Part shown: one piece after another, positions 5,304 to 34,753 of the stretch
Layout: each line of letters starts with the position of its first letter
How positions within the stretch are numbered: the first letter of the stretch is position 1
IMG/VR virus record: IMGVR_UViG_3300042731_010110
Coordinates: 1-41,525 of that record
Length of the DNA stretch: 41,525 bases
Source of the DNA: a virus
Reading direction: 5' to 3' (one strand)
Program-made: the position numbers and the translations under genes
The notes under the pieces: generated by a model
The model's database searches: none
Seen by the model: only the letters and a program-made list of their open reading frames with translations
Told to the model about the DNA's origin: nothing

Positions 5304-5449
5304 CTTAAATCCCTTAATTTCTGTTTTATTTTTTCAATGTTTTTCAGGATGAAAACCTTATCCGATTCGGAGGTAAAAGGATGATGCAACCTCCGATTCT
5401 GTTTCTGCAATCGGATTTGAAGATTATGTTTTTTCTCGGAATTGTTCAT
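5300..5449 (-). CDS. Small basic helical protein, unknown
   Basis: A 49-residue, lysine- and arginine-rich product (MNNSEKKHNLQIRLQKQNRR ... NIEKIKQKLRDLR) predicted by eye to be mainly helical or coiled coil. The start shares ATGA with the stop of the alanine-repeat gene and the stop shares ATGA with the DUF1660-like gene. This coupling on both sides is the main evidence that it is real. Function unknown. Confidence 0.5.
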   Translation of the reverse strand: MNNSEKKHNLQIRLQKQNRRLHHPFTSESDKVFILKNIEKIKQKLRDLR

Positions 5450-6012
5450 GATTCCCTCTCCAAAATTCTGACAGCCTGACGGATTATTTTTCTTTCCAGT
5501 TTTAATTTTTCGGCATCGGCGACGACAAAGGCAGCATAGTCGGCGGCATAGGCAGCATAGTCGGCGGCATAGGCGGCATAGGCGGCATAGGCGGCATAGG
5601 CGGCATCGGCGGCATCGGCGGCATAGGCGGCGGCATAGGCGGCATAGGCGGCGGCGTAGGCGGCGGCGGCATAGGCGGCACGGGCGACGGCATAGGCATA
5701 GGCTGCGGTTTTGTCTGACGGATCAGTTAGCCATTTTTTCGCCGCTTCAATCGCGATCCGAGGCCGATTATCTTCAGGATATATTTTCTCAAAATTAGGC
5801 AAAACCTGTTCAGCTGAGAAAACGGAAATTTCGACAAGTTGTTCTTTTGTCATAAGATGAGTAAAAAGCCATCTCGACCAATCCGGCCGATAATCATTTA
5901 TTTTAAGCAGGATATTTTCCAGATTCGACATTCCTTTACAGTTTTCCAGTCCCCATTTCAAGCCATCTTGACGCGGCCTGAGTTTTTCAATTTCTTCTTT
6001 TGTGATTTTCAT
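5446..6012 (-). CDS. Alanine/tyrosine-repeat protein, Imm-5-like putative immunity protein
   Basis: A 188-residue protein. The N-terminal 50 residues (MKITKEEIEKLRPRQDG...NDYRPDW) precede a block reading DNRPRIAIEAAKKW, which matches the D-x-RPR-x-AIEAA-x-x-W pattern of putative Imm-5-like immunity proteins. It then has a long run of AAYAA/AADAA units (residues about 100-165) and ends RKIIRQAVRILERES. The family label is from memory, and immunity function is inference. Start 6012 has GGAGGG just upstream; ATGs further upstream run into the tRNA. A shorter paralogue at 17692-17991 keeps both ends but lacks the RPR block and the repeats. The stop overlaps the next gene. Confidence 0.7.
   Translation of the reverse strand: MKITKEEIEKLRPRQDGLKWGLENCKGMSNLENILLKINDYRPDWSRWLFTHLMTKEQLVEISVFSAEQVLPNFEKIYPEDNRPRIAIEAAKKWLTDPSDKTAAYAYAVARAAYAAAAYAAAYAAYAAAYAADAADAAYAAYAAYAAYAADYAAYAADYAAFVVADAEKLKLERKIIRQAVRILERES
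5520..5700 (-). repeat. Short tandem repeat coding for AAY/AAD units
   Basis: About 180 bases made of 9-base units close to GGCGGCATA on the plus strand, with variants GGCGGCATC and AGCATAGTC. All units are multiples of three and keep the Ala-Ala-Tyr/Asp reading frame. The region is much richer in GC than its surroundings. Such arrays change length by slippage, so copy number probably varies between isolates. Confidence 0.9.
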
Positions 6013-6031
6013 GCATCCCTCCATAAAAAAA

Positions 6032-6102
6032 TAGCGGGGGCCGGATTCGAACCGGCATACTCGGCTTATGAGACCGACAAGGAACCACTCCTTAACCCCA
6101 CA
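6032..6102 (-). tRNA. tRNA with CAT anticodon (Met or lysidine-type Ile)
   Basis: Folds by eye into a cloverleaf. The D-stem is AAGG/CCTT, the anticodon stem TCGGT/GCCGA with loop CTCATAA (anticodon CAT), and the T-arm GCCGG-TTCGAAT-CCGGC. The acceptor stem is TGTGGGG against CCCCGCT, which leaves pair 1-72 as a U-U mismatch. The three G-C pairs of initiator tRNA are absent from the anticodon stem, so elongator Met or AUA-reading Ile is more likely. CCA is not encoded. A second 5' segment (AGCGGGG near 6118) could also pair with the acceptor 3' side but would give an oversized D region. Confidence 0.8.
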
Positions 6103-6189
6103 ATGGGCGGGTCTTTCCCCGCTTGTCACCCTCCACTATTTACCGGCGGCTTTCGCCATTTGAGGCCGCGGACAGGTCAACGCCCCTCT
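6103..6189 (-). other. Structured spacer between the two tRNA-like genes
   Basis: No gene seen. On the minus strand it holds small G-C-rich hairpins, including GCGGG-GAAAGA-CCCGC next to the tRNA and GGC-GAAA-GCC in the middle. These may guide processing of a joint tRNA transcript or be remains of another tRNA; no T-loop is present. Confidence 0.35.
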
Positions 6190-13227: not shown

Positions 13228-15582
13228 ATGAGTAGACACCGCCATCCACGCCAGAAAACAAACAGCACAGTACAAAATAGACATGTGACAAACAGCCTGA
13301 CGGAGCTTGCCGGGCAGTTGGCATTTATAAACGGTGTAACCGGCGGATCCACGCTTTCTTCCTACGGAACCGCCGCATATTCCAATAATTATGCGCTTCT
13401 CACTCTTAATCGTATAATTCTCACATATATGTACACCGGGAATGGTCTGTTTCAAACGGCCATTCAACAGCCGATTCTTGACGCCATCGGAAAAGGTATT
13501 GAAATTGACTGCCCTGAAATATCCTCTGCAGACGTCGACGATGTTCTGGAAAAATGGGAGGATTTCGATCTCTGGACCACAATTCTTGATACGTGGACAT
13601 GGGTCCGGCTTTTTGGCGGAGGCGCGGTTCTTATCAACAGTAATCAGGACCCGGAACAACCGATTGATTTTGATAAATTCCATCGCCAACCGCTTGAATT
13701 CTATGATCTGGACCGATGGCAACTTGATGTCAATTTGTCATACATTAACGATAATGACGCATTTCAAAAAAATCCAGATCCGGACGCCCTGTTTTATGTT
13801 TACGGAAATCCTATTCACAATTCACGTTTTTTGATGGGCCGGGGGAAACGCGCCCCTCATTATGTTCGGCAACAGCTTCGCGGATGGGGAATGTCCGAAG
13901 GGGAACGGATGATCCGGGATTTGAATTTATATCTCAAAACCCAAGACGTCACTTACGAATTGCTCGATGAGGCAAAGGTTGATATTTATAAAATTAACGG
14001 GCTGGCTCAGAAAATGATGACGACTGGGGGGACCACGGCTATAACAACCCGTATTCAGACGGCAAATCAGATTAAGAATTATGTCAAGGCTCTTGTCCTG
14101 GACGCACAGGAAGAATACGAATCGAAATCAATGACATTCGGGGGTCTGGCCGAGGTCATGCAGGAAAACCGGATCGGTATCGCGGCGGCCCTCCGCATTC
14201 CTGAAAATAAACTTTTTGGCCAGTCGGCAACCGGATTCGCGTCCGGACAAGACACGCTCGAAGTTTATAACGCAATGGTCGAGGCCGAAGTCAGAAAACC
14301 GCTTAATCCGATTGTTCGTAATCTTCTCAAAGTCATGTTTTCTTATGCCCTTGGCTATGTTCCCTCTTTTTCTTTTTCCTGGCCTTCGCTTCGGGAGTTA
14401 ACGCCGGAGGTCGAACAGCAAGTTAAAGACGCGGAAGCTAATCGCCTTTTTAATTTTTATGATCGTGGCCTTATCGACTCCCGCGAAATTATGCAACAGT
14501 CTGAAAAGTCATCATTGATTGAGATTGAAACAAAAGCCGGGAAAGGATTGTTACCTCCCCAACCAGAAGCTCCGGAAAAACCGGACGATATGGGTTCTGG
14601 GATGATGTCAAATAAGGCTGAATTTGACGAATCGAAACACCCGAGGGATGAAGACGGAAAATTCGGAACTGGAGGGGGAGGATCTTCAAAAACAGAAAAG
14701 ACGGAAAAAGAAAAAGGCGCCAGCGAAGTAGATCAAAAATATAAAGATTTTAAAGATAAAAAATTGATCGGAGGTCAAAGATTAAAAGAGCTCGGCGCGG
14801 ACCGGATGACAGAAGACACGGATTATCTGATTTATGATCCCGCAAATCCTGAACTGTTTATCCATGGCGACGGAATTGATTATATTAACGCCGCCGCTCA
14901 TCCGTTTTACAAGGAATTATGGGAATTGGACCAAAAAACGGAAGAGTCTTCGCTCCGATCGATGTTTGAATTATCAGCATGGACATTTATTAACCATTGC
15001 GAAAACGGGTTCTGGGATAAAGCCGACACGAAAGAATACGACATTAAATTTCTTGCTCGAAAAATGAATGGAAATGTCAATTTTGATATCACGAAAAAGT
15101 ATGTTTCTCTCGGAGCAATCAAAGAGGTTGAAAAAATTGTTGATAGTGTTCGCGGGATTAAAAACAGCCGCAAACTCAGGAATACAATTTATACTCTGAA
15201 GAATTTTAAAGTCTTCAGAAAAAGAAAAAATTCAGTCGATCCAGGTTTTCATGTCGATGTTGAAAAAGAGACCGAAAAGAATAAGAATTATCGAAAAGTA
15301 ATTTATACCGGTCCGCATGCTCAGCTTGTTTTGATGTCGCTGAACCCAGGGGAAGAAATCGGAAGGGAAACTCATTCGAACCTTGATCAGTTTATTCGGT
15401 TTGAAGGTGGAACCGGTACCGCCATAATTTCAGGAAAAAAATATTCCGTGAAAGATGGAGATGCTGTTGTCATTCCCGCCGGATCTGAACATAACATTAT
15501 CGCAAAAACCGAATTAAAATTGTACGCGGTTTACACAGAAAAAGAGCATCCGGATAAATTGATAGAAAAAGAAAAAAAATGA
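13228..15582 (+). CDS. DUF1073-type portal protein fused to nucleotidyltransferase-like and cupin domains
   Basis: Residues about 20-450 are a DUF1073 phage portal (dodecameric ring through which DNA enters and leaves), with LFGGGAVLI and IGIAAALRIPENKLFGQSATG. A hinge, DESKHPRDEDGKFGTGG near 468, marks a junction commonly seen before extra domains in phage head proteins. Residues about 510-640 have IGGQRLKELGADRMTEDTD, fitting the G-G-x(n)-D-x-D pattern of nucleotidyltransferases of the MNT/AbiEii kind. Residues about 690-775 are a cupin barrel (GEEIGRETHSNLDQFIRFEGG, DGDAVVIPAGSEHN). At 784 residues it is about 300 longer than a plain portal. A free paralogue of the middle domain lies at 17222-17695. 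The catalytic role of either extra domain is inferred. Confidence 0.88.
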   Translation: MSRHRHPRQKTNSTVQNRHVTNSLTELAGQLAFINGVTGGSTLSSYGTAAYSNNYALLTLNRIILTYMYTGNGLFQTAIQQPILDAIGKGIEIDCPEISSADVDDVLEKWEDFDLWTTILDTWTWVRLFGGGAVLINSNQDPEQPIDFDKFHRQPLEFYDLDRWQLDVNLSYINDNDAFQKNPDPDALFYVYGNPIHNSRFLMGRGKRAPHYVRQQLRGWGMSEGERMIRDLNLYLKTQDVTYELLDEAKVDIYKINGLAQKMMTTGGTTAITTRIQTANQIKNYVKALVLDAQEEYESKSMTFGGLAEVMQENRIGIAAALRIPENKLFGQSATGFASGQDTLEVYNAMVEAEVRKPLNPIVRNLLKVMFSYALGYVPSFSFSWPSLRELTPEVEQQVKDAEANRLFNFYDRGLIDSREIMQQSEKSSLIEIETKAGKGLLPPQPEAPEKPDDMGSGMMSNKAEFDESKHPRDEDGKFGTGGGGSSKTEKTEKEKGASEVDQKYKDFKDKKLIGGQRLKELGADRMTEDTDYLIYDPANPELFIHGDGIDYINAAAHPFYKELWELDQKTEESSLRSMFELSAWTFINHCENGFWDKADTKEYDIKFLARKMNGNVNFDITKKYVSLGAIKEVEKIVDSVRGIKNSRKLRNTIYTLKNFKVFRKRKNSVDPGFHVDVEKETEKNKNYRKVIYTGPHAQLVLMSLNPGEEIGRETHSNLDQFIRFEGGTGTAIISGKKYSVKDGDAVVIPAGSEHNIIAKTELKLYAVYTEKEHPDKLIEKEKK

Positions 15583-17221: not shown

Positions 17222-17695
17222 TTAAAAATACCGGATATTTTCCAGTATTTTTTCAACCTCTCTGGCCGCACCGACACTAACGTATTTTCTGGTTATATCA
17301 AAATTGACATTCCCCCCCATCTTGCGGGCCAGGAATTTAATATCAAATTCCTTCTCGTCCGCTCTTTCCCAGAACCCGTTTTCACAATGATTAACAAAAG
17401 TAAAGGCGCAAAGCTCAAAAAGAGCGCGGAGGGAAATATCTTCGGAATCGGCATCAAGGTTCCAAACTTCGGTATAAAACGGATGGGCCGCGGCATTGAC
17501 AATATCCATTCCCGGTTTCCGGATAAACAATTCCGGATTTTCAGGATCATAAATTAGATAATCAATATCGTCCGTGTATCGACTGGACCCCAGTTCTCGT
17601 AATTTTTGACCGCCGATTAGTTTTATAAATCCGACTGACGAATTATATTTATTGATTAAAATATTTAAAGCCTCAGTTTTTTCTGAGTTATTCAT
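17222..17695 (-). CDS. Free nucleotidyltransferase-like protein, paralogue of the portal C-terminal domain
   Basis: A 157-residue protein. From residue 24 it reads IGGQKLRELGSSRYTDDIDYLIYDPE, the G-G...R-x-T-x-D-x-D pattern of MNT/AbiEii-type nucleotidyltransferases. It then continues with INAAAHPFY-like, NHCENGFW and DIKFLARKM segments shared with portal residues 510-640. By eye 91 of 130 aligned positions are identical. The start at 17695 overlaps the stop of the short Imm-5-like gene (ATGA), so the two are translated as a pair. The substrate is unknown: transfer of a nucleotide to tRNA or protein (as toxins of this fold do), an inactive decoy, or a DNA-related role are all open. Confidence 0.75.
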   Translation of the reverse strand: MNNSEKTEALNILINKYNSSVGFIKLIGGQKLRELGSSRYTDDIDYLIYDPENPELFIRKPGMDIVNAAAHPFYTEVWNLDADSEDISLRALFELCAFTFVNHCENGFWERADEKEFDIKFLARKMGGNVNFDITRKYVSVGAAREVEKILENIRYF

Positions 17696-17991
17696 GAATC
17701 CCTCTCCAAAATTCTGACAGCGTGACGAATTATTTTTCTTTGGAATTTCAATCTTTCGGCATCGGTATAGGCGGCGGAATAAGTGGCTATATACGAAAGA
17801 AGGGCAATTTCGGAATATTGCTTTTCTGTCATAAGATGAGTAAAAAGCCATCTGGCCCAGTCTGGCCGATAATCATTTATTTTAAGCAGGATATTTTCCA
17901 GATTCGACATTCCTTTACAGTTTTCCAGTCCCCATTTCAAGCCATCTTGACGCGGCCTGAGTTTTTCAATTTCTTCTTTTGTGATTTTCAT
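17692..17991 (-). CDS. Short paralogue of the alanine-repeat Imm-5-like protein
   Basis: A 99-residue protein whose first 50 residues are nearly identical to the protein at 5446-6012 and whose last 17 (RKIIRHAVRILERDS) match its end. The central D-x-RPR block and the AAY repeats are missing; only a short stretch (IATYSAAYTDAERLKFQ) remains. The DNA over 17832-18003 is almost the same as over 5852-6023. The start at 17991 has GGAGGG and lies about 15 bases from the predicted transcription start; the ATG at 18003 would leave no leader. It is first in the reversed cassette and coupled to the nucleotidyltransferase-like gene. Confidence 0.7.
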   Translation of the reverse strand: MKITKEEIEKLRPRQDGLKWGLENCKGMSNLENILLKINDYRPDWARWLFTHLMTEKQYSEIALLSYIATYSAAYTDAERLKFQRKIIRHAVRILERDS

Positions 17992-18012
17992 GCATCCCTC
18001 CATTTCTTGTTA

Positions 18013-30507: not shown

Positions 30508-30851
30508 TTATAAGAGGATTGGACAGTAACGACGATTGGACCTTCGGACGCGGAATTCAGAATTATCTCCGAAACCTTGACGCTGTTTTACTCAATATTA
30601 AGACTCGTTTGAAATCATGGAAATACGATTGTTTTTTTGCTCCGGCCGAGGGGGTTGACTGGAATAATTATCTTGATATCGGAACAAAAAGTTTTCTTGA
30701 CGCGGACATAAAGCGTGTTATTTTGCAGTCGGAAGGTGTTTTGAAAGTAACCGGATATGAAAGTACGATTGATAGAGATTCTCGCGCGTTATCCGTGCAG
30801 TGTACAATCAATACAATTTATGGTAATATCGATTTTAATGAGGTTTTATAA
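30504..30851 (+). CDS. Baseplate wedge protein, gpW/gp25-like
   Basis: A 115-residue protein between spike and J-like genes, the fixed place of gp25/gpW. WTFGRGIQNYLRNLDAVLLNIKTRLKSWKYDCFF resembles the helix and strand of gp25-type wedges, although the classic EPR motif is not seen. The C-terminus (VLKVTGYESTIDRDSRALSVQCTI) is a beta sheet. ATG 30504 shares ATGA with the spike stop. Confidence 0.7.
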   Translation: MIIRGLDSNDDWTFGRGIQNYLRNLDAVLLNIKTRLKSWKYDCFFAPAEGVDWNNYLDIGTKSFLDADIKRVILQSEGVLKVTGYESTIDRDSRALSVQCTINTIYGNIDFNEVL

Positions 30852-32035
30852 TGCCCGATGTTTTTGACAGAAACGGACTACAGACAAAAACACTCACGGA
30901 ATTACGGGAAGAAAATATTGAAGGTCTTGAAGATATTTACGGTTCTGACATCAACGTCGATCAGAATTCCCCGGACGGACAACAGGTAAATTTATACTGT
31001 CAGGGCGGAGTTGATATCCGAGAAGTTCTTTCAAATATTAACGCCGGGTTTGATCCGGATCAGGCGGAAGGGCGGGTCCTTGATCAGCGTGTCGCTCTGA
31101 TTGGAATAACCAGAAACGGCGGCACATTTTCCACGACGCCGGTTTCTCTGACTGTAGACCGGGCCCTCAATCTTGTCGGCCTTGATGATGATTCCGAAGA
31201 AATTAACCCGGCAATTGAAAATTTATATACGATCAAAGATGATGCCGGAAATGAGTTTTATCTTCTTGATTCTGTTTCTATAGTCAGTCCCGGAACAGAT
31301 TCCTATTCTTTCAGGGCTGCCGATTTGGGGGCCGTCTTAATTACTCCGAATACAATTACAACTCCCGTTACCGTTATCGCCGGTGTGACCGATATCAATA
31401 ATCCGTCCGGAGCATCGAATATCGGAGTTGATGAAGAAACTGACGCTCATTTGAGAACCAGATTTAAGATTTCCCGCGCCATCTCGTCTGTCGGTTATCT
31501 TGATTCTTTGAATGCCGCTCTCAATAATCTGAATAATGTTGTAACGGCAATAGTTCTTGAAAATTACGGATCTGCTGAATCCGGAGGAATTCCGGGACAT
31601 ACGATATGGTGCATTGTTGAGGGAGGAGACGATACGGAAATCGCCGCCGTAATTTATGCTAAAAAATCAATGGGTTGCGGAATGAAGGGAGATGAAGAGG
31701 TCGAAATTGAACGTCCCGACGGAACTATTTTCACAGCAAAATTTGACCGCCCGATTGATGAAGATTTGTATATTCAATTTTCAATGGCTCTTCCCGGAGG
31801 AACTATTAATACAGATTATATCAAAGAACAGATTGTTGAAAATATAATTTGGGGTACTGGAAACTCTGCTGTAGGATCAACAATTACTTCCTATGTTCAG
31901 AGTTTAAATTCAAAATATCAGATAACGGAAATGGAAGTGTCTTTGAACGGTTCCGACTGGTATGAAGTCGTTGACCCGACCGATAGTCAGCATCGATTGA
32001 TTAACGATACGGCAAGGATAACAATATCGACATGA
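30851..32035 (+). CDS. Baseplate J-like wedge protein
   Basis: A 394-residue gpJ/gp47-family protein. RVLDQRVALIGITRNGGTFS near residue 75-95, VSIVSPGTDSYSFRAADLGAV, ITTPVTVIAGVTDINNPSGASNIGVDEETDAHLRTRFKIS near 170-215 and VTAIVLENYGSAESGGIPGHTIWCIVEGG are the standard parts. It builds the wedge that triggers sheath contraction. It overlaps both neighbours. Confidence 0.9.
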   Translation: MPDVFDRNGLQTKTLTELREENIEGLEDIYGSDINVDQNSPDGQQVNLYCQGGVDIREVLSNINAGFDPDQAEGRVLDQRVALIGITRNGGTFSTTPVSLTVDRALNLVGLDDDSEEINPAIENLYTIKDDAGNEFYLLDSVSIVSPGTDSYSFRAADLGAVLITPNTITTPVTVIAGVTDINNPSGASNIGVDEETDAHLRTRFKISRAISSVGYLDSLNAALNNLNNVVTAIVLENYGSAESGGIPGHTIWCIVEGGDDTEIAAVIYAKKSMGCGMKGDEEVEIERPDGTIFTAKFDRPIDEDLYIQFSMALPGGTINTDYIKEQIVENIIWGTGNSAVGSTITSYVQSLNSKYQITEMEVSLNGSDWYEVVDPTDSQHRLINDTARITIST

Positions 32036-33423
32036 ATTCTGAATTATTGGATTATTACGTCAATCTTCTCATTTTGCAATATAAAACAAAAGAAAAGGCT
32101 CAAGGCCATATCAGGGAATTATTGAATCTTGTCATGATTTATGATCTGGCGATCCAAGTCAGAGACGGATATAACATTGAAACGGCAATCGGTCACCAGC
32201 TTGATATTTTGGGAAAATATTCTAATGTCGATCGAAGTTTATTTGATGGAATTATATGGTCAGAACAAGATACTCTTGACGGACCTGTGAGAAGTTTCGC
32301 TTTTGGAAATGGAATTTTTGTTGCCGGAACCTCAACGGGAAATTCAATCTGGACTTCTGTTGATGGGATAAGATGGACAGAGCGGCAGACGCTTGATGGA
32401 AATATTTTATCTTTGGTTTATGGAAATGAATTATATGTCGCCGGAACGACAAATAATTCTATTTGGACCTCCACGGATGGGATAATCTGGACACTGGTAC
32501 AAACTCTTGATGGAAATATTTTATCTTTGGTTTATGGAAATGAATTATATGTCGCCGGAACGACAAATAATTCTATTTGGACCTCCACGGATGGGATAAT
32601 CTGGACACTGGTACAAACTCTTGATGGCGACGTTCAGGTTTTAATTTATGAAAATAATCTTTTTGTTGCCGGCATTTCAGTTGTAGGAAATTCAATCTGG
32701 ACCTCTCCGGACGGGATAATCTGGACTGAGCAGCAGACCCTTGATGGAGCGGTTCGTTCTTTAACCTACGGAAATAATTTGTATATTGCCGGAACTGATA
32801 ATGATACTATTTGGACCTCCACGGATGGGATAATCTGGACACTGGTACAAACTCTTGATGGAAATATTTTATCTTTAATTTCTGAAAATCAATTATTTAT
32901 TGCCGGAACTTCAAATAGCACTTTATGGACTTCTATTGACGGGATTAACTGGACAGAGGTTCAGACTTTTGACGGAAATATTTACTGTTTGTCTTTTGGA
33001 AATAATGTTTATATAGCCGGTACCGGAGGGAATTCAATATGGATAATTCCTGAAGAAGAAAATATGTTCAGAACAATAATCAAATTATTGATTTTTCTCA
33101 ATAATTCAAATGGGTCAAATAAGGATATTGACGATTTTATTTTTTCATTCTTCGGAAATGACGATTTTATCTTTAACGATCGTTTAAATATGTCTATCAT
33201 GTTTATTTTTCAGGAAAATCTTGAACAACTTTTTACGATTGCAAAAAATGCCAATTTAATTCCGAAACCAATGGGGGTCGGATTATCAATCGCATTTGTA
33301 CCGGATATAACAAAAATATTTTGTTATGTTCCTTATGGACAGGAAACGCCGGATTTTGGCGTTGGGTTTTCATTATACGGCGAAGAAGCCGAAGGGAGTT
33401 TTTTGAAATATGGCATCGTCTGA
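32032..33423 (+). CDS. DUF2612-type baseplate tip protein with an inserted seven-bladed propeller
   Basis: The first 75 residues (LLILQYKTKEKAQGHIRELL ... ETAIGHQLDILGKYSNVDRS) and the last 125 (FRTIIKLLIFLNNSNGSNKDI ... IPKPMGVGLSIAF, then FGVGFSLYGEEAEG) are the two halves of a DUF2612 phage protein. Between them are seven repeats of about 38 residues, each with a W-T-x-x-Q-T-L-D-G start, a YGN-x-L-YVAGT strand pair and an IWTS-x-DG end. TS-x-DG-x-x-W resembles Asp-box/BNR blades. Seven copies fit a closed beta-propeller. This insertion is probably a receptor- or glycan-binding head carried on the baseplate (inference). The length of 463 residues is about twice that of plain DUF2612 proteins. 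Confidence 0.8.
   Translation: MNSELLDYYVNLLILQYKTKEKAQGHIRELLNLVMIYDLAIQVRDGYNIETAIGHQLDILGKYSNVDRSLFDGIIWSEQDTLDGPVRSFAFGNGIFVAGTSTGNSIWTSVDGIRWTERQTLDGNILSLVYGNELYVAGTTNNSIWTSTDGIIWTLVQTLDGNILSLVYGNELYVAGTTNNSIWTSTDGIIWTLVQTLDGDVQVLIYENNLFVAGISVVGNSIWTSPDGIIWTEQQTLDGAVRSLTYGNNLYIAGTDNDTIWTSTDGIIWTLVQTLDGNILSLISENQLFIAGTSNSTLWTSIDGINWTEVQTFDGNIYCLSFGNNVYIAGTGGNSIWIIPEEENMFRTIIKLLIFLNNSNGSNKDIDDFIFSFFGNDDFIFNDRLNMSIMFIFQENLEQLFTIAKNANLIPKPMGVGLSIAFVPDITKIFCYVPYGQETPDFGVGFSLYGEEAEGSFLKYGIV
32392..32619 (+). repeat. Two identical 114-bp propeller units in tandem
   Basis: Bases 32392-32505 and 32506-32619 are identical and encode one 38-residue blade each. Part of the same sequence recurs near 32811-32876. 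The exact copy shows recent duplication or gene conversion inside the propeller. Confidence 0.92.
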
Positions 33424-34753
33424 AATAACGAGAAAAGAGCAGATAGTTTTTGGAGAGACCGGGGCATCAACAGAATTCGGTCAATTTGGTTCCGATGCGG
33501 AAGGCGCTCCCGCAACTTCAAAAGATTTGGACGTAATTCAATCTTTGGATTCTTTTGATCGTGGATGGTATGACGCGACAATAGAGGGCTCAGAACCTCC
33601 GAGGCTGGAAGACAGGAACGGTCTTGATTATGTCATTTTTCAGCAGTTGGCATATTTATTACAAAAGGGAATTCCTGAATGGATCAACTCGGCAACTGAA
33701 CGATACTATGCCAATAAATCTGTAGTTACAAGATCCGGATTGGTCTATATCGCTATTCTCGGTGATGATTCATCGAATATCAATGTACAAAAAGACCCGG
33801 CTACTGAATCGACATGGTGGAGAAATATTCCTGGAACTGTAGCCGAATTTGTTACTGGACAAAGCGGGACATCCGGTGGATCGTTAATGCAACAGTTGGG
33901 GGATCAGATCCGGCAAAGTGGTTTGATTGTTCCTAAACTGGTTGGAAGTTCTTATGGTCATACCATTCTGCAAGAAGGATTATCAGGAACATTGAGTGTA
34001 ACGTCTGGTGACTGGATAGTTGTTGCAAAAAGAGAAGCTGGTACAAGCTCTGTCCTTGATATGATGTTACAATTTGTTGGAAGTACAAACACTTTTGGAT
34101 TCGGCCATTTTTTTGTTACAGGAAGACAGCTTCCCGGCTCCTCAATTTTCGATTGGGTATTTACACCTGGAGCACTATCAATTGCTGGACCTCAATTTAC
34201 TGGTCGATGCATGATCGTTGGATCAAATGACGCCACCGATCGTGGAAATTATTTATTGATGGAGATGAAAAACACTACAACTCTTGTTTTAAAAACTTTA
34301 GGGATTTTTAATAGTTATATTGGATTAACATGGGAAATTGTTGATCCGTTCATTTGGAATGGTACAACCCTCCCCGACGGATCATCCTACGCCACATACG
34401 GTCAGGCGTCAGATGACTGGTGGAGATTCGGGGCCGGTGAGACGGAGATTTGGAGTGGAAATCAGGTTGTTACAGCCGGAAATAGTTATAATTGGACATC
34501 ACCTATTTTTACTGGATTTAGTAATCAAATGTTTCAAGCATATATTATATATTTTACAGATTATTTTTTGTTTATTTGTAAACCAAAAACAAATAGTTTA
34601 AGCAACTATACTTATTTATTAAGAGGTCAACCATCCAGTAATTCTTATATTCAAGGTGCTGTCTACTTAGATGCTTCTTCCGATGATTTCTATCTTTTTA
34701 ACGGTCATTCAGTTTCGGTGAGTGTAACACGTATTGTAGGAGTTAATTATTAA
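33410..34753 (+). CDS. Tail fibre or tail-tip adhesin
   Basis: A 447-residue protein at the end of the late operon. The N-terminus (TRKEQIVFGETGASTEFGQF ... SLDSFDRGWYDATI) resembles the baseplate-attachment part of phage fibres. A short helical part (LAYLLQKGIPEWINSATERYYANKSVVTRSGLVYIAI) precedes a beta-rich C-terminal half with repeated G-N-S-Y/W strands. From about 34040 the sequence is more AT-rich and W/F/G-rich, as in receptor-binding domains. It overlaps the tip gene by 14 bases. No chaperone or chitinase domain recognised. Confidence 0.72.
   Translation: MASSEITRKEQIVFGETGASTEFGQFGSDAEGAPATSKDLDVIQSLDSFDRGWYDATIEGSEPPRLEDRNGLDYVIFQQLAYLLQKGIPEWINSATERYYANKSVVTRSGLVYIAILGDDSSNINVQKDPATESTWWRNIPGTVAEFVTGQSGTSGGSLMQQLGDQIRQSGLIVPKLVGSSYGHTILQEGLSGTLSVTSGDWIVVAKREAGTSSVLDMMLQFVGSTNTFGFGHFFVTGRQLPGSSIFDWVFTPGALSIAGPQFTGRCMIVGSNDATDRGNYLLMEMKNTTTLVLKTLGIFNSYIGLTWEIVDPFIWNGTTLPDGSSYATYGQASDDWWRFGAGETEIWSGNQVVTAGNSYNWTSPIFTGFSNQMFQAYIIYFTDYFLFICKPKTNSLSNYTYLLRGQPSSNSYIQGAVYLDASSDDFYLFNGHSVSVSVTRIVGVNY

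Follow-up and report, generated by a model that had tools for sequence, protein, structure and literature searches.

What is a complete propeller domain doing in the middle of a phage baseplate protein, and whose place has it taken? These questions are raised by an open reading frame (ORF) at 32032-33423 of the window, the whole 41,525-nucleotide stretch analysed here, whose source is an uncultured contractile-tailed phage represented by a single 41.5-kb IMG/VR virus record. An earlier note on this DNA had described the product as a baseplate tip protein interrupted by a propeller with freshly duplicated blades, had regarded the propeller as a good candidate for receptor binding, and had proposed that shuffling of its blades would change host range.

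Identity of the gene and its neighbourhood

The product of the ORF is a subunit of the baseplate wedge of the gp7 class, the equivalent of T4 gp7. It matched Pfam DUF2612 (PF11041) in two stretches (E=2.9e-16, 60.4 bits against a cut-off of 23.5) and phrog_587 at 1.9e-24, while a search of the PDB returned weak matches that were the wedge proteins XM1 gp17 and phi92 gp146. Separate profiles of the N-terminal and C-terminal parts of the wedge protein, built in this analysis from relatives, flanked the repeats, scoring 92.6 bits before and 111.9 bits after them with a gap of 272 aa between. The gene lies between those for a Baseplate_J wedge protein and a tail fibre (Table 1). The insertion into a DUF2612 protein was thereby confirmed as a clean one by Pfam, phrog and alignments, and the label of baseplate tip protein has to be replaced by that of a wedge protein of the XM1 gp17 class. 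We regard the anatomy of a domain replacement in this ORF as practically certain. The window protein retrieved zero matches when used as a query against genome contigs.

Table 1. Coordinates of the wedge gene, its insert and the adjoining genes in the window
Feature	Position (nt)	Strand	Basis or remark
Baseplate_J wedge protein, expected DUF2612 partner	30851..32035	+	PF04865 4.4e-9, phrog_6 5.7e-31
DUF2612 baseplate wedge protein (gp7 / XM1 gp17 class) with propeller insert, 463 aa	32032..33423	+	PF11041, phrog_587
N-terminal wedge core, aa 1-73, conserved as far as R68	32032..32250	+	two alignments; predicted helices 3-13, 21-46
Predicted seven-bladed Asp-box propeller, aa 74-342	32251..33057	+	AlphaFold2; Foldseek, VIA-align
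Blade repeat 1; first strand (IIWSEQ) expected to close blade 7	32251..32367	+	repeat analysis, AlphaFold2 model
Blade repeat 2	32368..32481	+	
Tandem tract, 122-nt exact run, offset 114 (32392-32513 = 32506-32627)	32392..32627	+	
Blade repeat 3	32482..32595	+	
Blade repeat 4, 40 aa	32596..32715	+	
Blade repeat 5	32716..32829	+	
70-nt tract, offset 348, identical to 32459-32528	32807..32876	+	
Blade repeat 6	32830..32943	+	
Blade repeat 7, without Asp box	32944..33057	+	
C-terminal wedge core, aa 343-463	33058..33423	+	alignment and C-terminal profile
Putative C-terminal fibre-docking motif IFCYVPYGQETPDFGVGFSLYGEEAEGSFLKYGIV, aa 429-463, retained	33316..33420	+	likeness to relatives; XM1 gp17 201-242 equivalent
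Tail fibre: family N-terminal anchor and non-propeller head	33410..34753	+	phrog_20878

Predicted fold of the insert

AlphaFold2, run on the insert alone with an alignment of 33 relatives from viral contigs, predicted a closed toroid of 28 strands (7 x 4) with a pLDDT of 95.7 and a pTM of 0.92, and Foldseek and VIA-align matched this model end to end with seven-bladed propellers over 265-270 residues at a Z of about 31. The closed seven-bladed propeller proposed from the letters was therefore upheld by structure prediction. In the model the chain enters through the outer strand of a blade and stops after strand 3 of the final blade, which is the usual closure, and by this strand topology both ends of the propeller would exit on the Asp-box face. 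When the full-length protein was predicted with a DUF2612 alignment, the propeller was poorly modelled (pLDDT 40-60, mean 60). MAFFT alignments mixing wedge and propeller rows were misaligned and were discarded. The insert scored 25.6 bits against Pfam DUF6242, under the gathering cut-off of 29, and was not assigned to that family. The same seven-bladed Asp-box fold is found in Ycf48 / PSII_BNR (profile match to Ycf48 1.5e-6, Foldseek match 5oj3), a photosystem assembly factor whose function is unrelated to that of the window propeller.

Repeats and history of the blades

The ORF is split by seven repeats of 38-40 aa each (aa 74-342, nt 32251-33057). Seven Asp-box-like repeats had been claimed, and the number of repeats stands, but the Asp boxes themselves (S-x-D-G-x-x-W, between strands 3 and 4) number six, spaced 38-40 aa apart. 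Repeat 7 terminates in IWIIPEE and has no Asp box because the chain ends on strand 3 of that blade.

The identity of two blades over 114 bases was found to understate the case, as the exact run common to the neighbouring blades 2 and 3 extends over 122 nt. The 2/3, 3/4 and 5/6 blade junctions are also connected by shorter stretches of perfect identity, of 70 nt (offset 348) and of 55 nt (offset 234). Unaffected blade pairs use the same codon at only 62% of their aa-identical positions, a rate at which some 40 consecutive identical codons would arise by chance with a probability of ~4e-9; the run between blades 2 and 3 thus marks a recent event, and the recent duplication or conversion suggested before is supported. 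The blades of the propeller insert have been homogenised recently. Since exactly seven blades were present in 48 of the 73 blade clusters of complete relatives, conversion at a fixed number of blades appears more probable than their gain and loss. An exact 42-mer search found no near strain with a different number of blades, and the variation between blades showed no clear confinement to one face of the propeller.

The insert occupies the fibre-attachment loop

In the alignments, R68 and R347 of the window protein correspond to R68 and R122 of gp17 of Vibrio phage XM1 (PDB 7kh1). In XM1 gp17 the loop 80-106 binds one set of six spikes and the C-terminus 201-242 binds the other (PMC10457771), and in gp45 of Pseudomonas phage E217 residues 76-123 form the fibre attachment loop (PMC10329688). 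As judged from these alignments, the insert takes the place of exactly the loop that bears spikes or fibres in the solved relatives XM1 and E217. XM1 gp17 resembles the window protein in its DUF2612/phrog_587 core, both halves of which align, in the C-terminal docking region, which is kept, and in gene order (J, DUF2612, fibre or spike), but it carries a spike-binding loop of 27 aa where the window protein has a propeller of 270 aa. E217 gp45 is likewise a wedge (triplex) protein with the fibre-attachment loop, but without a domain insert.

Among 172 distinct DUF2612 proteins, the loop measured 40-59 aa in 139 and 13 aa or less in 24; it was about 50 aa in L007, which is among the closest relatives of the window (J protein 64% identical). 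The loop is dispensable, as these 24 proteins do without it. A large insert within the loop was found only in the window and in L021, and a propeller insert only in the window (1/172), the rarity being a rough figure as the survey was biased toward proteins near the chosen queries. Either part, the receptor-binding propeller or the fibre-docking wedge protein, has been described before, and their combination is rare. Conservation gives no argument for function here, since the case is a single one among the 172 proteins.

Several other DUF2612 proteins were found to carry extra sequence. The product of L021:6152-8032, in which DUF2612 was the sole Pfam match, has an unrelated insert of ~380 aa in the same loop, splitting the docking motif of the loop. 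The inserts of L168:2901-3881 and L173:3012-3944 lie in the N-terminal helical hairpin and not in the loop, and that of L168 matched tail tube and sheath families (phrog_10909, phrog_2839). A survey of prophages added one protein, that of L343:2029-3717 (G330), which is proteobacterial and probably from a prophage; here an insert of ~280 aa lies in the C-terminal half, again not in the loop.

A duplicated docking peptide and its loop copy

Relatives carry a short docking peptide twice per wedge protein, in the loop and at the C-terminus. This was tested on 51 representatives of <60% identity with 2000 permutations, in which the loop of a protein scored 59 against its own C-terminus and permuted pairs scored 33 (maximum 40.4 in the 2000 permutations); the likeness exceeded that of shuffles in 45 of the 51. 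In XM1 gp17 the copies are FFGFSENPLAKGFTSLENP in the loop and TFGFSNNPGSKSFGSLNNP at the C-terminus, and this duplication fits the two sets of spikes seen by cryo-EM. The C-terminal motif of the window protein aligned locally with the C-terminus of L007 at a score of 114, and the insert scored 22 against the protein's own C-terminus, which is shuffle level, so that a docking motif of the loop kind is absent from it. The window wedge protein has thus very probably lost its loop dock.

The adjoining fibre resembles, over its first ~130 aa, the fibre of L007 (50% identity) and the propeller-headed fibre of L121 (38%). As the C-terminal dock and the fibre anchor are kept and the loop copy is gone, six fibres are predicted rather than twelve. 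A different arrangement was seen in L050:3492-4214, a DUF2612 protein with an 85-aa loop containing two docking-like motifs but with none at the C-terminus, which gives the impression of a relocated dock.

Propellers in related and known systems

Asp-box propellers of the window type occur at no fewer than 432 loci in viral contigs. In L121 and L155 an Asp-box propeller of the seven-blade type belongs to the same baseplate module, and the wedge protein has no loop. The fibre gene directly downstream encodes the anchor seen in the window fibre and, behind it, this propeller, which forms the C-terminal head of the fibre there, whereas in the window it lies inside the wedge protein. The propeller protein of Limnohabitans phage DC31 was considered as another wedge-adjacent fibre and was rejected, its upstream gene not being DUF2612 and its start being without the anchor. 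In L032:9853-11811 an Asp-box propeller is inserted into another tail protein, a siphophage Gp37-like one (PF14594), which parallels the situation in the window. Viral contigs also held tandem arrays of adjacent genes, most of which encode a short N-terminal domain and a seven-bladed propeller (L273, L282, L297, L301, L305 and L329). Giant viral proteins in L266, L267, L274, L298, L304 and L321 have between 28 and 44 Asp-box blades, in some of them a multiple of seven.

Propellers at the baseplate periphery have been proposed to bind receptor in phi11 Gp45 (five-bladed) and PhiKZ gp131C (seven-bladed, PDB 4GBF) (PMC4901313), but these are a trimeric receptor-binding protein or a C-terminal domain of another protein and not insertions in DUF2612. 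The giant "baseplate wedge initiator" proteins of cyanophages (S-SSM7 E3SL21, DSL-LC03) hold an Asp-box propeller inside, as the window protein does; they are thousands of residues long, unlike its 463 aa, and are likened to it by annotation and propeller only. In GP075 of Pseudomonas phage K8, a DUF2612 protein, host range was extended either by the change T239A in the C-terminal motif, for which a gain of LPS-core binding is reported, or by a 7-aa tandem duplication at 113/114, in the loop (PMC9887876). K8 is an independent case of this wedge protein turning receptor-binding. These host-range mutations map to the same loop and C-terminus as the insert site and docking motif of the window protein, although the duplication in K8 covers 7 aa with no domain insert and the blades of the window are of 38 aa.

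Proposed role and alternative explanations

A wedge would be composed of two J proteins and one DUF2612 protein, with six wedges per tail, and each copy of the docking peptide in relatives would hold one trimeric fibre or spike. With the whole loop swapped for a closed propeller, we infer that six propellers would encircle the baseplate at the positions from which one set of fibres would otherwise hang, and that the single fibre gene would supply six fibres docked at the wedge C-terminus. If both junctions lie on the Asp-box face, the opposite face of the propeller should point outward. The propeller would then serve as a host-surface adhesin fused to the wedge, through which receptor contact could lead to sheath contraction without a fibre. 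On balance we favour, with moderate confidence, a fused adhesin that stands in for a set of six docked fibres. That the propeller binds a receptor is plausible, and this gains support from the fibre-loop position, the propeller-headed fibres of L121 and L155 and the K8 mutants. Counting against the adhesin is that a monomer fused to the wedge differs from the usual trimeric receptor-binding fibre.

The propeller might instead be a protein-protein adaptor, by which the wedge offers a platform to another virion protein such as a fibre, a cap or the neighbouring wedge. Propellers are common scaffolds in general, and in XM1 and E217 the loop that is missing here serves for attachment; moreover, T4 gp7 has 1032 aa against 242 aa in XM1 gp17, the two being orthologs according to the XM1 paper (PMC10457771). 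However, a single ORF of the window was recognised as fibre-like, and its anchor is that of relatives whose fibres dock on the peptide motif; the same type of propeller serves as a fibre head in L121 and L155, and we consider an adaptor unlikely. A passive insertion, in which a compact domain whose ends lie side by side came to be tolerated in a permissive loop and the homogenisation is owed to slippage only, is quite improbable. This would agree with a loop missing in 24 of the 172 proteins, with an insert seen once and with the exact tandem tract, but nothing of the loop is left in the intact ORF, the core residues of the repeats are kept while synonymous codons diverge, and every copy of the wedge protein has 270 residues more to carry.

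Sialidases and other glycosidases are found among Asp-box propellers, and the insert could act as a sialidase-like enzyme or depolymerase on envelope polysaccharide; against this, a Pfam search of the ORF gave no match to a glycosidase family, and the blades are near-identical in the manner of WD40 or Ycf48 proteins, with none standing out as catalytic. We judge such activity very improbable. We give as little credence to the insert or its exact repeat being an artefact of metagenome assembly. In favour of it, exact tandem repeats are prone to mis-assembly, the structure comes from one virus record, and an exact 42-mer search recovered the junction nowhere else. Against it, the reading frame is uninterrupted, the ends of the insert coincide exactly with the loop boundaries, seven is the usual number of blades, and short-read assembly tends to collapse repeats and not to create them.

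The presence of a propeller exactly in place of the fibre-docking loop, read as a fused adhesin, suggests that fibres may not be the sole link between receptor contact and the contractile machine. The duplicated docking peptide offers a sequence rule, by which the number of motif copies in a wedge protein would predict six or twelve fibres. We put forward only tentatively, and with some doubt, that the fibre loop of the gp7 class is a plug-in site where a docked fibre can be swapped for a fused adhesin, be it the propeller of the window or the unrelated domain of L021, with blade conversion varying the head. Were this true, tailed phages could build mixed baseplates of six fused heads and six fibres.

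Other features of the window

Among the subset of window ORFs scanned with Pfam, no reverse transcriptase was found. The portal protein (Phage_portal_3, 13228-15582) carries an unexpected C-terminal Cupin_2 fusion at aa 702-768. An exact direct repeat of 140 nt occurs at 5885-6024 and 17864-18003, where it spans the starts of two minus-strand paralogues, one at 5446-6129 (Imm5-like, PF21805) and a shorter one at 17692-18003, which are the product of a recent gene duplication. The longer paralogue contains an Ala/Tyr-rich low-complexity tract made of GGCGGCATA repeats.
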